Virus record (IMG/VR): IMGVR_UViG_3300025000_000221
Span: 1-40,382 of that record
DNA: 40,382 nucleotides
Strand: one strand, 5' to 3'
Source: a virus
This document shows, piece after piece, positions 1 through 33,710 of this stretch. How positions within the stretch are numbered: position 1 is the stretch's first letter; every line of letters starts with the position of its first letter. Under the pieces are notes generated by a model. The model had not been told where the DNA came from. It was given only the letters and a program-made list of their open reading frames with translations, and ran no database searches. The position numbers were made by a program, and so were the translations under genes.

Positions 1-2
1 TC

Positions 3-1196
3 GGCGGCCGCCTCGAGGTCCTGAACAACAACATCAGCGATCCGCAGACGCTGTCCAAGTTCGAACCGCTCGGCCGCGACTCCGATTCGACTGACGGTCT
101 CAACCCGTCCGGGGCCGTCATGGACGAGCTGCACGCCTGGAAGACCCGCGACCTGTGGGACGTGATCGAGACCGGCACCGGCTCCCGCGTCCAGCCGATG
201 ATATTCGCGATCACCACCGCGGGCTATAACCGCCATTCGATCTGCTGGGAAAAGCACGAGTATCTGTGCAAGATCCTGTCCCGGGTGATCGAGGACGACA
301 GCTATTTCGGCATGATCTACACCCTGGACGAGGGCGACGACATCGACGACGAAAGCTGCTGGGTCAAGGCCAACCCGAACCTAGGCGTCTCGGTAAAGAT
401 CGACGACCTGCGCGGCGCCATCCAGCGGGCCAAGGAAAGCCCGGCGGCGATGAACTCGGTGCTGCGGCTGCGCCTCAACCAGTGGACCCAGGCGGAGACC
501 AGATGGCTCAACCTCGAGAGATGGCAGCAATGCGGCAGCCAGATAGAGCCTTCCAGTCTCTCCGGCCGGCGCTGCTATGGCGGTCTCGATCTCTCCTCGA
601 GCATCGATATCTCCGCCTTCATTCTCGTCTTCCCGCCGGTCGAGGATGGCGAGCCCTACAAGGTCCTGTGCCGCTTCTTCATTCCCGAGGACAACATGCG
701 CGAGCGCTCCCGGCGCGATCGGGTGCCATACGATGTCTGGTGCCGCGATGGCCTGATCAAGGCAACCCCGGGCAATGTCATCGACTACGCCTGGATCATC
801 GATCAGATACAGAAGGACGCAGCCGCCTACGACCTGCAGGAGATCGCCTTCGACCGCTGGGGCGCGACGCTGATCTACCAGCAGTTGTCCGATATCGGCA
901 TGCAGGTGGTTGAATTCGGTCAGGGCTTCGCTTCGATGAGCCCGCCGGCGAAGGAGCTGGAGAAGCTGATCCTGGCCGGGAAGATCTGCCACGGCGGCAA
1001 TCAGGTGCTGACCTGGATGGCCGACAACGTCGTCGTCCTCCAGGATCCGTCCGGCAACCTCAAGCCGGACAAATCGAAATCGAGCGAGAAAATCGACGGC
1101 ATCGTCGCCATGATCATGGCCCTCGACCGGGCGCTGCACGGCGAGACGAACAACAGGGTATCGCGCTACGAACGAGAGGGGATCAGATCGTTATGA
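3..1196 (+). CDS. terL: Phage terminase large subunit, 5' truncated by the window edge
   Basis: ATPase-nuclease motor that cuts concatemeric DNA and packages it through the portal. The frame is open from base 3, so the gene starts before the window; 397 residues are visible. The Walker A region is missing. A Walker B-like segment (AVMDELHAW) with the usual preceding GLNPSG lies near base 105-140, followed by the TTAGYN motif III-like segment. The RNase H-like nuclease domain begins at GLDLSSSIDISAF (about bases 585-620), contains FDRWGA and ends with KIDGIVAMIMALDRAL, giving the acidic metal-binding residues. This is the HK97/Terminase_1 type. The small terminase expected upstream is outside the window. 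The stop overlaps the next start (ATGA), so the two are probably translationally coupled. Confidence 0.96.
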   Translation, partial: GGRLEVLNNNISDPQTLSKFEPLGRDSDSTDGLNPSGAVMDELHAWKTRDLWDVIETGTGSRVQPMIFAITTAGYNRHSICWEKHEYLCKILSRVIEDDSYFGMIYTLDEGDDIDDESCWVKANPNLGVSVKIDDLRGAIQRAKESPAAMNSVLRLRLNQWTQAETRWLNLERWQQCGSQIEPSSLSGRRCYGGLDLSSSIDISAFILVFPPVEDGEPYKVLCRFFIPEDNMRERSRRDRVPYDVWCRDGLIKATPGNVIDYAWIIDQIQKDAAAYDLQEIAFDRWGATLIYQQLSDIGMQVVEFGQGFASMSPPAKELEKLILAGKICHGGNQVLTWMADNVVVLQDPSGNLKPDKSKSSEKIDGIVAMIMALDRALHGETNNRVSRYEREGIRSL

Positions 1197-28354: not shown

Positions 28355-28369
28355 TAGGAGGTGACTGAT

Positions 28370-29992
28370 ATGGCGACTTCGCAAGTATCCCCGGACTGGC
28401 GGGGCAGATGCACATACAATGGACACGGTGGTGGGTCGGATGGCATTCCACCGGCGACAATGCAGGTAGGCCTCCCTGGTGCTGTCGGCTTCGGGGTCGG
28501 GGTGTGTCCGCCGGGCTCGCTGCCGCCTGGCTTCACTCCGCTCTCTGGCTATGCCGATCCGGCATCGCCCAACTACGGTAACTACCAGTATTCGGACGGC
28601 TCGGTGATGGTGTGGATTCCTAAGTTTTTCTATCGGATCAACCACGCCGCCAACCCGACATACTCAATCTACACCCCGAATGATATCCACATCGTCGGCG
28701 GCGAGACATTCGCCAATCGTGCCGCAGCGACCGCCGCTGGATACGCCCTGCACCGCGCGTTTATCGACGGCGGGGTTGAGCAACCGGGATTCTTCGTTGA
28801 CAAGTATCAGGTAAGCAAAAATGCCAAGGGCACCGGGTTTGTTGGCTCGTCGATCCGCAATGGCCTGCCGCTATCGTCGTCTGCCGCCCACAATCCGGTG
28901 GGCGACCTGACCGCAGTCGCCGGGATCAACGCCAACTATGCGTTCTTGACTGCGGCCAGGGCCCGCGACGGGGTTGATGGGGCGATCAACGCCTCGTCGG
29001 TTTTCTTCAATCAGTCTGTATTCATGATGTCGGCGCTGGCGATGCTGGCGCTGGCCCACGGTCAGGCGGCTACCGGCACTGCATACTGCGCCTGGTGGAG
29101 CGCGACGACGACCAATTTCCCGAAAGGTTGCAACAACAACGCCCTGCGCGATACCAACGATACCACGGTGGTGTACCAATCCGATGGCTACCCCAACTGC
29201 GGTAAGACCGGGTCTGGTGCGCTGCTCGCCAAAACCACCCACAATGGCCAGGACTGCGGGGTCTGCGATGTCAACGGCAACATGTGGCAGGTACTTATCG
29301 GGATGACCTGTATCGGCTCAACTAAGGCCATTACGGGCGTGACACTGGCAAACCCCTGCGTGTTGACTGTCGTTGGGCATGGACTCGAAACAGGTCGTAT
29401 TGTTGAGGTTGGCGGGATCGTTGGAACCACCCAACTCAACACCAAGATCTACACGGCAACGGTGGTCGACGCGGATCATATCTCCCTCGATGGGGTGGAT
29501 TCGACGGGATACACCGCCTACGCCTCGGGCGGCACGCTGTATTTTGGCACATTCTATGTCGCCAAGGAAGCCGCCAGAATGCGCGATTTTACGGCCGGAA
29601 ATACGCTGGCCACGGACCACTGGGGCGCAACCGGCGTTGCCGCGATGATGGAGGAGATTCCTGGGGTGGTGGTGGCAGCTGCAGGAGGGTTGTCGTGCAA
29701 TCAATATTTCGGTAACGGAGCCAACCAGGTGCTGTCCGGTGATGCCTCTGGGAATGGCTATCAATTGGCGTCCGTAGGGCTGGCAAAAGATGCCAGCGGA
29801 TATTCAGCGGCCGGGACAGATCTGTTTGGCAAGGATAGGCTGGAGCAATACATTCGTAACGAGCTCTGTCTCCTCGGTTGTGGGTACTGGTCCTCTGGCA
29901 CGACTGCCGGTGTTTGGTACCGTAACTTGTTCCACTACCGCCCGACCTCGCTCAGCAGCCTCGGGGCGCGCTCCGCCTGTTATCCTGTATAG
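28370..29992 (+). CDS. DGR target: tail-tip C-type-lectin-like receptor-binding protein
   Basis: 540 residues from ATG 28370, whose Shine-Dalgarno (AGGAGG, 28356-28361) rules out the in-frame GTG at 28361. The C-terminal domain has a C-type-lectin/FGE-like fold (MVWIPKFFYRI, FFVDKYQVSKNAKG, CDVNGNMWQV) and ends in the variable repeat (residues about 498-537, GVWYRNLF, then LGARS). An FCCH-like beta module (about residues 319-393: AITGVTLANPCVLTVVGHGL, SLDGVDSTGYTAYASGG) is inserted in the lectin fold. DGR target proteins of this type display the variable residues on a ligand-binding surface, in phages the tail tip. Confidence 0.93.
   Translation: MATSQVSPDWRGRCTYNGHGGGSDGIPPATMQVGLPGAVGFGVGVCPPGSLPPGFTPLSGYADPASPNYGNYQYSDGSVMVWIPKFFYRINHAANPTYSIYTPNDIHIVGGETFANRAAATAAGYALHRAFIDGGVEQPGFFVDKYQVSKNAKGTGFVGSSIRNGLPLSSSAAHNPVGDLTAVAGINANYAFLTAARARDGVDGAINASSVFFNQSVFMMSALAMLALAHGQAATGTAYCAWWSATTTNFPKGCNNNALRDTNDTTVVYQSDGYPNCGKTGSGALLAKTTHNGQDCGVCDVNGNMWQVLIGMTCIGSTKAITGVTLANPCVLTVVGHGLETGRIVEVGGIVGTTQLNTKIYTATVVDADHISLDGVDSTGYTAYASGGTLYFGTFYVAKEAARMRDFTAGNTLATDHWGATGVAAMMEEIPGVVVAAAGGLSCNQYFGNGANQVLSGDASGNGYQLASVGLAKDASGYSAAGTDLFGKDRLEQYIRNELCLLGCGYWSSGTTAGVWYRNLFHYRPTSLSSLGARSACYPV
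29863..29978 (+). repeat. DGR variable repeat (VR)
   Basis: The 116 bases align without gaps to TR at 30453-30568 (offset 590). All 23 differences are at TR adenines (VR has C, T or G there); no other TR base differs. The 34 TR adenines include runs of AAC codons in the reading frame of the target gene, so VR changes are mostly at codon positions one and two and produce, for instance, Asn to Tyr, Ser, Thr, Phe, His and Leu. The 3' end (TCGGGGCGCGCTCCG) is identical and GC-rich, as expected for the initiation-of-mutagenic-homology segment. Confidence 0.96.
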
Positions 29993-30009
29993 CCGTGCGA
30001 TAGCGCGGC
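29992..30009 (+). promoter_or_regulatory. DGR target hairpin downstream of VR
   Basis: GCCGTGC (29992-29998) pairs with GCGCGGC (30003-30009), one G-T pair, around a GATA loop (29999-30002). It lies 13 bases after VR and overlaps the last base of the stop codon. In known DGRs a GC-rich stem of about seven to ten pairs with a four-base GRNA loop in this place promotes target recognition; GATA fits GRNA. Confidence 0.82.
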
Positions 30010-30020
30010 AGTGAGGGCAA

Positions 30021-30425
30021 ATGCTGAAGACGTATAGTCGTGATGGGGTTGTGCCCCACAAGTTCATTGAGACGATGAAGCTGCTCAATATCTATCTCAA
30101 TCATTTTCCGAAGCACGAACGACATGCGCTGTGTTCCACAATCCGGACCACTGCATACAATCTGTATAATCTCATCACCGAGGCATTTAAAAGGTATTAC
30201 AAGAAAACAACGCTGACCCAGATCGACATCACGCACGAGCAGCTCCGGATGCAGATATACCTGGCCTATGAACTCGGGTATTTCGGGTTCAGCGGCGGGA
30301 AGGAAGCCGAGAACCGGAGCGACGTCGAGGGCCACAGGTACCTGACGATCAGCCGGTTGATCGATGAGTTGGGAAAGCTCATCGGGGCATGGATCGGCAA
30401 CGCGAAGGCAAAAGGCGAATGGTGA
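30021..30425 (+). CDS. avd: DGR accessory variability protein (Avd, four-helix bundle)
   Basis: 134 residues between target gene and TR, the position of avd in the Bordetella phage DGR. The helical pattern is that of the family: FIETMKLLNIYLNHFPKHER, STIRTTAYNLYNLITEAF, ITHEQLRMQIYLAYELGYF, RYLTISRLIDELGKLIGAWI. Avd proteins form pentameric, positively charged barrels that bind the reverse transcriptase and RNA and are needed for mutagenic homing. The start follows a GAGGG site (GTGAGGGCAAATG). GC is lower than in the tail genes. Confidence 0.92.
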   Translation: MLKTYSRDGVVPHKFIETMKLLNIYLNHFPKHERHALCSTIRTTAYNLYNLITEAFKRYYKKTTLTQIDITHEQLRMQIYLAYELGYFGFSGGKEAENRSDVEGHRYLTISRLIDELGKLIGAWIGNAKAKGEW

Positions 30426-30452
30426 ATATCCACGCATGACAGGGCAATCAAC

Positions 30453-30568
30453 AATATGTCTCATCGGTTGTGGGAACTGGAACAATGGCACGAATGCCGG
30501 TGTTTGGAACCGTAACTTGAACAACAACCGCACGAACTCGAACAACAACATCGGGGCGCGCTCCGACT
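30453..30568 (+). repeat. DGR template repeat (TR)
   Basis: This is the invariant, adenine-rich source copy (34 A in 116 bases) lying between avd and the reverse transcriptase. Its RNA is copied by the error-prone reverse transcriptase, which puts random bases opposite A. The copy then replaces VR in the target gene at 29863-29978. Clusters of AAC (WNNGTNAG, NRNLNNNRT, NSNNN in the VR frame) are the usual design that maximises amino acid variety and never creates ochre or amber stops. Confidence 0.96.
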
Positions 30569-30704
30569 CTATTCTCTCCTCAGGCTCGAACTTGAGATTT
30601 GGAATACAGGGATTGATTGTCCCGGCCTATTGGCCGAAATAGGAAGAACCACGGCGATTTTGGTAGCCAATGGCGAAGACCTCGCCGGGTATTTTTTAAG
30701 GAAT
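30569..30704 (+). ncRNA. TR-downstream spacer of the DGR RNA with two small hairpins
   Basis: 136 bases between TR and the reverse transcriptase start. CGGCC/GGCCG with a TATT loop (30623-30636) and GGCGA/TCGCC (30672-30686) can form stems. In the Bordetella phage DGR, the RNA downstream of TR (about 140 bases) is required for cDNA priming by the reverse transcriptase-Avd complex; the length here fits. No clear gene lies inside, although the TR reading frame continues open to 30642. Confidence 0.55.
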
Positions 30705-30707
30705 ATG

Positions 30708-31805
30708 ATGAAACGCTACGGCAATCTGTTTAACTCGACATTCTCTGAGGAAGCGCTGTACCGCGCCTACCTTTCAGCGAGCAAGGGCAAGAAGAAGACC
30801 AAATCATATCTGCAGTTCTCGGCGCATCTTGGGGCCGAGCTTTATCTGTTGCGCGAGGAATTGCTGAGCGGTGATTATCGCCTGCGGCCATATCGCCGGC
30901 TCAAGATTCAGACGCCGAAGCCGAGAGATATCCTGGCGCCGCACTTCCGCGACGTGGTGGTGCAACATGCCATCTATGCCACGATCTACCCGATCTTCAA
31001 CCGGTCGTTCATCCATACCTCGTTTGCCTGCCGCAAGGGCAAAGGCACGCATGCGGCCAGCGACTGCGCCTACCACGCAATGCAGGAACACGACACAGAT
31101 CTTTGCACCCTGCATCTCGACGTGCGGCGGTTTTTCTCTTCCATCGACCGGGAGATATTGGTCGGCCTGCTGAAGCGTAAAATCAAGGATGATCGGTTGC
31201 TGGCGGTGATGGAGCTTTTCTGTTCAAGCGCCGATGGAAGCACGGGGATACCCCTCGGTAATCTGCTGTCACAACTCTACGCCCTGATTTATCTCAACCC
31301 GGCCGATCATTTCATCAAACGAGTCCTGAAGGTCAACCGGTACGTTCGCTATGTCGACGACATGGTGTTGATCGGGATGACGCGGCCGGTGGCGAAAAAG
31401 CTGCAGGAGGTGATTAAGGGCTTTCTCGCTGACAAGTTGCACCTAAATCTGTCGAAATGGTCACTCAGGAGGATCCGCGAGGGGATAAACTTCGTCGGCT
31501 ACCGGACCTGGCCGACACACCGGTTGATCAGAAAGTACAGCCTCCAGAAGTTCCGGCGGGCTGTAGCCAAGGGCAAAGACGAGACGGCATGGTCGATCAT
31601 CGCCCATGCCCAGTGGACGAGCAGCCTGAAAATCATGAAAAATATCATTTCTCGTAGCAACAGGATGGTGATCCATTTGCCATTATCACACAAAAGGAGA
31701 TTGGGATTATGTTGCCTTCCGAACAATTTGATCTGTATGGGAAGTATCTGGCCGGAACCGAGTCTGAATTGGAGTTGGACCAGCTGGCCCGCGAGCGATT
31801 TTTGA
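30708..31805 (+). CDS. DGR reverse transcriptase
   Basis: 365 residues. The ATG at 30708 is chosen because AAGGA lies five bases upstream and the product begins MKRYGNLFN, the usual N-terminus of DGR enzymes. Catalytic motifs: LHLDVRRFFSSID (Asp138), LGNLLSQL (residues 183-190, the DGR-type motif 4 with SQ instead of QG) and RYVRYVDDMVLIG (YVDD, 215-218). FVGYRTWP and the helical thumb follow. It copies the TR RNA with low fidelity at A. The last 97 bases overlap the next gene and read as unusual sequence, so the original stop may have been lost. Confidence 0.96.
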   Translation: MKRYGNLFNSTFSEEALYRAYLSASKGKKKTKSYLQFSAHLGAELYLLREELLSGDYRLRPYRRLKIQTPKPRDILAPHFRDVVVQHAIYATIYPIFNRSFIHTSFACRKGKGTHAASDCAYHAMQEHDTDLCTLHLDVRRFFSSIDREILVGLLKRKIKDDRLLAVMELFCSSADGSTGIPLGNLLSQLYALIYLNPADHFIKRVLKVNRYVRYVDDMVLIGMTRPVAKKLQEVIKGFLADKLHLNLSKWSLRRIREGINFVGYRTWPTHRLIRKYSLQKFRRAVAKGKDETAWSIIAHAQWTSSLKIMKNIISRSNRMVIHLPLSHKRRLGLCCLPNNLICMGSIWPEPSLNWSWTSWPASDF

Positions 31806-32131
31806 AGCTTAAGATGCGGGAAAAACTCGCTGCCGAGATCGGCGATTGTGAGGACAATGTCACCGATGTCCTGCGCGGGGTGCTGCTGTGCTATGCGGTA
31901 TCGGCTAAGATTGTCACCGACACTGTGGTGATTGCCAGGTTGAACAACTATGTCACCCAGATGCTGGCTGGTTATGGTGGGGCAGCGGCGGTGATGGATG
32001 TGCTTGAGTACGACGCCATGCCGATCATGGTTCACGTTAGGGATGGGTATTTCGCGGCCAAGGCGAAGATCAAGGCGGCGAAGACCAAGGAAGAGGTCAT
32101 GGGGGTGGATATTGATGGGGGTGAGGTATGA
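31709..32131 (+). CDS. Hypothetical protein directly downstream of the DGR reverse transcriptase
   Basis: 140 residues with AAGGAG upstream (about 31694-31699). It starts inside the reverse transcriptase frame (97-base overlap). A helical protein: SELELDQLARERFLKLKMREKLAAEIG, VLRGVLLCYAVSAKIVTDTVV, ending in a charged helix. Gene pairs placed this tightly behind a DGR reverse transcriptase could be accessory factors or tail-fibre assembly proteins; neither is shown. Overlaps the next start by four bases. Confidence 0.7.
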   Translation: MLPSEQFDLYGKYLAGTESELELDQLARERFLKLKMREKLAAEIGDCEDNVTDVLRGVLLCYAVSAKIVTDTVVIARLNNYVTQMLAGYGGAAAVMDVLEYDAMPIMVHVRDGYFAAKAKIKAAKTKEEVMGVDIDGGEV

Positions 32132-32566: not shown

Positions 32567-32614
32567 TGGTGCCCCCGGCAGGAATCGGACCTGCGGCACC
32601 AGGATTAGGAATCC
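32567..32614 (-). other. attP core: 3' half of a tRNA-Arg(CCU) gene
   Basis: On the minus strand this is the tRNA 3' part: anticodon loop TTCCTAA (anticodon CCT, 32607-32609), anticodon 3' stem TCCTG, variable loop, T-arm GCAGG TCCGATT CCTGC (32578-32594), acceptor CGGGGGC, discriminator A and CCA. The matching 5' half is absent: beyond base 32614 the anticodon stem no longer pairs (TTGGA where CAGGA is required). Integration into the host gene would restore a complete tRNA. Phage genes lie on both sides, so this is the phage copy. The host gene should have an acceptor starting GCCCCCG. Confidence 0.88.
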
Positions 32615-32642: not shown

Positions 32643-33710
32643 CTAGCCGGTTTCGGACGAACTGTCCACATTCCCACCTGGACGTGGTTTTTCTGGACAG
32701 TCGGTGACCAGGTCGTTCAGTTTCCGTCCTTGGGTTCTCAGGTATTCGCCGGCGAGATGCTGGTAGACGCCGGTGGTTGACGGGCTGCTGTGGCCCATGA
32801 TCGCCTGGAGGGCCGACAGATCGTAGCTGGCGACGGTCGCGTTGGTGCCGAATGAGTGGCGCAGCAGGTGGTGGTAGATGTGCTTCTCCACCCCGGCCTT
32901 TGCCGCTGCCCTGTCCAGGGCCTTCCTGATCGACAGGAATGGCCGCTGCGTCGTCTCGTTGATCGTCAGATACCCTTTCATCCCCCGCCGCGCCTCCAGT
33001 TCGTGCCGCAGCCGATCGGTCGTGATCGGCACGATCCGTTCCTTGCTCCCCTTCCCCATCACGAATATCACCCCCAGTTCATACTCCACCTGCTCGCGGT
33101 GCAGCAGCAGGGCCTCGGATCGCCGCAGGCCGGCGTCTGCCATCAGCAAGAACACCAGCCGATAGGCCGGCTCGATCGTTTCGTAGATCCGGCCGACCTG
33201 GTCGACGGTCAACGGCCGCGGCTTCGGCGGCGCCGTCATCCTCCTTTCGTATCCGGCGATCGGGAACGGGATCGGGTCGCAGTAATCATTGGCAGCCGCC
33301 CACTTGAGCATCGACGACAGGTAGCTCAACTCCTTCGTTACCGTCCGGTGCTTGACCCCCTGCCCTACCCTCGCCTGTTTGTACTGCTCGATCAGTTGCC
33401 GTGACAACACCTTGGGCTGCAGCCTGCCGAATACCGGCCGCAGGTGGACCCAGCAGGTCTCGGCGTCGGCCACCGTGGAGGCGGCCCGGTTGGCTCGATA
33501 GTAGGCGATCCAGCTGGGCCAGATCCCGGAGATGATCTTCGCCGTCGGTCGGAGGTACTCGACATGGCGGCGCATGTAGCTGCGCTCGACGGCAATGGCC
33601 TCCTCCCGGGTGCACTTGAGGATGTGCCGCAGCCGCTTGCCTTTATAGCCGGACGGCCGGCAATCGATGATCCAGTGCCCCGGTTTCGTCGGGTGTTCGT
33701 GGACGCTCAT
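32643..33710 (-). CDS. int: Tyrosine-recombinase integrase
   Basis: 355 residues. The catalytic set is complete: Arg in ADAGLRRSEALLL (about 196), Lys in VMGKGSKERIVPIT (about 220), HHLLRHSFG (His281, Arg284), GHSS (His307) and Tyr316 in TTGVYQHL. The N-terminal 60 residues are an arm-binding domain, followed by a SAM-like core-binding domain (IWPSWIAYYRANRA). It inserts and, with an excisionase, removes the phage at the tRNA-Arg site whose core lies 29 bases beyond its stop. The last 25 residues overlap a candidate arm site at 32663. No clear Shine-Dalgarno; translation may be coupled to the gene upstream (33726-34298). Confidence 0.96.
   Translation of the reverse strand: MSVHEHPTKPGHWIIDCRPSGYKGKRLRHILKCTREEAIAVERSYMRRHVEYLRPTAKIISGIWPSWIAYYRANRAASTVADAETCWVHLRPVFGRLQPKVLSRQLIEQYKQARVGQGVKHRTVTKELSYLSSMLKWAAANDYCDPIPFPIAGYERRMTAPPKPRPLTVDQVGRIYETIEPAYRLVFLLMADAGLRRSEALLLHREQVEYELGVIFVMGKGSKERIVPITTDRLRHELEARRGMKGYLTINETTQRPFLSIRKALDRAAAKAGVEKHIYHHLLRHSFGTNATVASYDLSALQAIMGHSSPSTTGVYQHLAGEYLRTQGRKLNDLVTDCPEKPRPGGNVDSSSETG

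Follow-up and report, generated by a model that had tools for sequence, protein, structure and literature searches.

Known phage systems and the new locus

Diversity-generating retroelements (DGRs) are machines that rewrite adenine codons in the terminal part of a tail-protein gene, which lets a phage change what it attaches to. The DGR of phage BPP-1 has the order mtd-avd-TR-brt, where TR is the template repeat and brt the reverse transcriptase (RT) gene. In the BPP-1 model an avd-TR-spacer (Sp) transcript draws in the RT-Avd complex by means of its spacer structure, cDNA synthesis into TR starts from an internal spacer adenine, errors arise opposite adenines, and the cDNA homes to the variable repeat (VR) aided by IMH and a stem-loop (PMC12875486). 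A metagenomic catalogue holds 31,007 DGRs, and the targets of its phage clades are mostly tail proteins (PMC8144416, 2021). The element described here lies in IMG/VR virus record IMGVR_UViG_3300025000_000221, a contig of 40,382 bases that was analysed whole and is called the window below. It is almost certainly a BPP-1-type phage DGR, complete and intact in structure (Table 1). It is real yet standard, of a kind already thoroughly known, and its novelty is small because the class has been catalogued on that scale (PMC8144416). With tens of thousands of comparable phage DGRs in catalogues, a single further locus adds little; this one is useful for being clean and complete and for coming from a temperate phage of the environment.

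The window shares with BPP-1 the gene order, TR/VR differences restricted to adenines, a C-terminal VR, an Avd, an RT, a GC-rich hairpin with a GRNA loop past the VR and a structured spacer of about 130-140 nt. It differs in that its target has no detectable sequence relation to Mtd, its Avd is weakly alike and its spacer, unlike that of BPP-1, does not match the Rfam family Phage_DGR. The IMG/VR phage contigs L003 and L018 (loci related to the window carry L numbers) hold the complete element with the VR in the same place and with targets 54-60% and RTs 57-63% identical; they are different phages with other TR letters and other VR content. Pseudomonas phage Bise (OR683401) has an avd-like gene, an RT of 48% identity and a TR/VR pair with nine differences, all at adenines, but its own target is different and shorter (364 aa). 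At least 560 relatives of the RT and 193 of the target were found among viral contigs. In bacterial genomes the RT found none as a single-sequence query and 80 loci as an alignment query.

Table 1. Features of the retroelement and of its surroundings, in window coordinates
Feature	Position	Strand	Remarks
Target gene, variable tail/receptor-binding protein, 540 aa	28370..29992	+	ATG 28370; AGGAGG at 28356-28361; reading frame opens at GTG 28361
FCCH-like beta domain in target	29318..29545	+	Residues 320-395, ahead of the VR-bearing C-terminus; Pfam, Foldseek
VR	29863..29978	+	Core 29867-29972; differs from TR at TR adenines alone; edges analysed separately
Hairpin/cruciform with GRNA loop, GCCGTGC-GATA-GCGCGGC	29992..30009	+	7-bp stem (one G-T); 13 nt past VR
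avd, accessory variability determinant, 134 aa	30021..30425	+	Pfam bAvd; PHROG 3206
TR	30453..30568	+	34 adenines, mostly at target-frame codon positions 1 and 2
Spacer (Sp) RNA, 136 nt	30569..30704	+	Conserved secondary structure; RNA model R1
DGR reverse transcriptase, 366 aa	30705..31805	+	Frame can be opened from TTG 30630; motifs IPLGNLLSQ and YVDD intact
Phage attachment site, 3′ part of tRNA-Arg(CCT)	32567..32614	-	Adjoins integrase; context outside the DGR
Tyrosine integrase	32643..33710	-	PF00589, 6.8e-25; context

The template and variable repeats

TR and VR align without gaps over 116 bp and differ at 23 positions, every one of them at one of the 34 TR adenines (12 A>C, 8 A>T and 3 A>G), for which the hypergeometric P is 2.5e-16. 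An earlier reading of the sequence alone had given the length of 116, the 23 differences, the 34 adenines and the restriction to adenines, and realignment reproduced all of these. An independent repeat finder recovered the pair as 112 bp at a spacing of 590. In the target frame 21 of the 23 changes affect the first or second codon position, as is expected from templates rich in AAC and AAT, and the VR makes up the last 40 or so residues of the target, its extreme C-terminus.

The sequence-only reading had taken all 23 differences as the DGR pattern. Their placement is exact, and with the edges trimmed all 19 differences in the TR core (30457-30562) still fall on its 30 adenines (P = 1.2e-13), but the four outermost differences are probably no product of mutagenesis. 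Three of them (30453, 30454 and 30456) lie where the homology between TR and VR fades. The fourth, an A>C at TR 30566 and VR 29976 that turns GACT into GCCT, is common to both members of each same-phage pair (see below) that reaches the site; it is best read as a fixed difference between the initiation of mutagenic homing sequence of the VR (IMH) and its TR counterpart (IMH*). The putative IMH is GCGCTCCGCCTGT and the putative IMH* is GCGCTCCGACTCT, and the GACT/GCCT difference is fixed across relatives.

A duplicated gene fragment that diverged in the ordinary way, with a bias towards adenines arising by chance, would also leave two repeats, and the existence of two copies is all that speaks for it. 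It was rejected, its probability being negligible in view of P values of 1e-13 to 1e-16 for the adenine placement, the adjacent avd and DGR RT genes and the recurrence of the same pattern in more than 100 related loci. To pass the filter of the scan that yielded these loci, a pair needed six or more differences and changes at over 25% of its adenines; the scan recovered BPP-1 (L007) as its positive control, and the filter removed tandem-repeat loci such as L049, L050, L089 and L093.

Avd, the reverse transcriptase and the hairpin

The protein encoded between VR and TR matches Pfam bAvd (E 3e-16, 60.3 bits against a cut-off of 40) and PHROG 3206, 'Avd protein of DGR' (E 5e-20). The RT matches Pfam RVT_1 (1.3e-13) and phrog_1423 (9.9e-99), and it is 37% identical to BPP-1 brt over 320 residues. 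Its nearest solved structure by sequence is PDB 8ub7 (2.5e-55), labelled just 'Reverse transcriptase' in the PDB table, which we take to be the BPP-1 enzyme in view of the brt alignment; intron RTs follow at about 1e-19. The placement of the enzyme in the DGR clade is by best match rather than by a full RT tree.

An RT of another system, such as a group II intron, a retron or a defence RT, could in principle have come to stand beside the repeat by chance. Among NCBIfam RT models group_II_RT_mat does score best, though its 113.8 bits fall short of the cut-off of 300, and models of defence RTs are among the PADLOC matches of the protein. These matches reflect general RT homology, and phrog_1423 and 8ub7 score far higher, so the three other kinds of RT were rejected; Avd, TR, VR and the spacer RNA are moreover all present alongside the enzyme. 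Such an origin is extremely improbable.

According to the published rule, a post-VR hairpin has a GRNA loop on a GC-rich stem of 7-10 bp and stands 4-34 bp away from the VR (PMC3240598). The window hairpin conforms to it with a GATA loop. A strict search for GRNA hairpins was positive in 28 of 112 related loci, compared with 0.32 expected from shuffles, and it recovered the known BPP-1 hairpin as a positive control.

Every BPP-1-type component that was tested for was thus found. The sequence-only reading had called the DGR complete, and its parts (target, VR, avd, TR and RT), their BPP-1-type order and the RT end at 31805 were borne out by open reading frames (ORFs), Pfam and PHROG. Its list went without the post-VR hairpin, the structured TR-RT spacer, the IMH/IMH* difference and the phage attachment site (attP).

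Activity in the family and in the window phage

The family to which the window DGR belongs is active, as several same-phage pairs of contigs, identical over kilobases, differ nowhere but inside the VR and there at TR adenines alone. In L174/L177, 2,444 bp upstream and 1,738 bp downstream are identical and 14 of 14 VR differences lie at TR adenines; in L069/L070 the identical flanks measure 2,347 and 5,692 bp and the count is 18/18. Three further pairs give 20/20 (L033/L040), 6/6 (L055/L056) and 18/19 (L048/L051), and the TR is identical within each of the five pairs. The first four pairs are contigs of different samples, natural before-and-after records of DGR activity, and a use of the family is that its public contigs alone supply such records of mutagenesis. 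In the pooled target frames of 104 loci most changes are at codon positions 1 and 2.

The sequence-only reading had stated that the element has been active in this lineage. The adenine-only TR/VR pattern of the window and the same-phage pairs of its family back that statement. Activity is established for the relatives, and the window phage may itself be diversifying today.

Several observations weigh against an intact and working element. Avd stays below the cut-off of NCBIfam DivGenRetAVD (66.8 bits, E 1.8e-18, against 80), and the target resembles its nearest solved structure by fold alone. The RT has an unusual C-terminal tail (31709-31805): the stop that closes the L003 and L005 proteins has been lost, and the reading continues by some 30 codons into the following gene (31709-32131), in a different frame from it. 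A pattern scan of viral_contigs with N at the TR adenines found no sister contig of the window phage with another VR.

A genuine DGR that is now inactive in the window phage, its VR being the frozen outcome of past mutagenesis, would account for the lack of such a sister contig and for the missing RT stop. Decay does occur, in that relative L005 is without avd, TR and the RT N-terminus and yet keeps a variable-type C-terminus. On the other side, the ORFs of the window element are all open, YVDD is intact, the hairpin and the spacer structure are preserved, and close family members are active. We regard a frozen element as rather unlikely, and the DGR of the window as structurally intact. Through a natural deletion in L005 (4900-5660) the beginning of avd runs directly into the middle part of the RT; TR and spacer are gone and the variable protein is intact, so that this DGR was frozen by deletion. 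The gene at 31709-32131 encodes a 140-aa protein of unknown function that is conserved behind the RT in L003 and L005.

The spacer RNA

The spacer between TR and RT is the sole mildly new part of the locus, being clade-specific, structured and under the Rfam thresholds. Its 136 nt compare with a median of 131 in 65 loci. In an alignment (A7) of 46 spacers, the window stretch and 45 relatives, compensatory changes support 15 of the 19 predicted pairs, and 92.9% of cells can pair; the covariation score is 0.58, as against 0.165 in shuffled alignments and 0.07-0.15 in slid ones. The covariance model R1 matches window 30535-30695 at 102.3 bits. It also detects held-out relatives (L012, L031, L047 and L088, for example) directly upstream of the RT at E values of about 1e-34 to 1e-44, and it has no match in L005, where the spacer stretch is deleted. 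The covariation offers a testable secondary structure beyond the BPP-1 lineage.

At gathering thresholds no Rfam family matches the window, RF03022 Phage_DGR included, whereas the BPP-1 spacer scores 104.7 bits with RF03022. R1 on the BPP-1 spacer gives 15.2 bits; since this match is just a short and weak one over the TR 3′ end, sequence does not show the two RNAs to be homologous. RT-14 (RF02921) reaches 25.1 bits on the window spacer against a threshold of 48.1 (E 0.09-0.8), but the match is full-length and in the right place, and RT-14 may therefore itself be a DGR spacer RNA. The order of elements (a 5′ hairpin, GGGA/UCC, a GC hairpin followed by AAA and a closing 3′ stem) is, judged by eye, like that of Phage_DGR and RT-14, and this likeness of architecture is a lead. 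The tentative reading, to which we give somewhat less than an even chance, is that the spacer RNA of the window clade forms a structured family of its own outside Rfam and shares one architecture with RT-14 and Phage_DGR, which would make RT-14 a DGR priming RNA as well. In BPP-1 the cDNA is presumably primed at spacer adenosine 56. As a further lead, helix 1 would put adenosine 30603 (..TTTGGA..) of the window at the corresponding place.

A possible mechanism and its target

All the sequence elements that the BPP-1 model needs are present, and by analogy with it the biochemical steps would be as follows. The avd-TR-Sp transcript would bind RT and Avd through the structure of Sp, and an internal Sp adenosine would prime cDNA synthesis into TR. 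The RT would misincorporate opposite the TR adenines, and the cDNA would then home into the VR and replace it, with IMH and the hairpin as guides. The outcome would be a varied, solvent-exposed C-terminal site on a tail protein of C-lectin fold, probably one that binds a host receptor.

The target matches phage tail PHROGs, and its relatives are 43-70% identical. An AlphaFold model built from 27 relatives (mean pLDDT 80) has its best PDB match in TaqVP of a Thermus aquaticus prophage (5vf4; E 2.8e-10), a likeness in fold at 14-15% identity and a TM score of 0.36-0.53. As far as the consulted part of the TaqVP report goes, that protein has an FGE-type C-lectin fold and a C-terminal VR, and an FCCH-like insert is not reported for it (PMC6328139). 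By this fold match the target is a variable protein of C-lectin fold, and the VR occupies the 3′ end of its gene.

The target carries in its middle an insert similar to the FCCH domain of ubiquitin E1 enzymes, which is seen in all 27 aligned targets. Pfam E1_FCCH matches it at E 4.8e-5, under the family cut-off, and Foldseek places it with E1 enzymes including 2v31 (root-mean-square deviation 2.0 over 79 columns).

The phage and its host

The contig is that of a temperate siphophage, with genes for terminase, portal, major head and tail proteins, tape-measure, endolysin, integrase and repressor. A megablast search with 25 kb of the window against named phages gave no match, so that no close named relative was found. 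A Desulfobulbus metagenome-assembled genome has a tRNA-Arg(CCT) gene to which the 48 bp of attP are 98% identical; no such site was found in E. coli genomes. This sequence match is a hint only of a Desulfobulbus-like host. The same Desulfobulbus assembly also has a related DGR (L097).

The position of the attachment site inside the contig, beside the integrase, suggests that the sequence represents excised or packaged phage DNA and not a prophage still integrated and truncated at either end. At the contig start (window 1-1196) the terminase large subunit is without its N-terminal part, and this truncation indicates that a genome either longer or circular was cut to give this linear contig.

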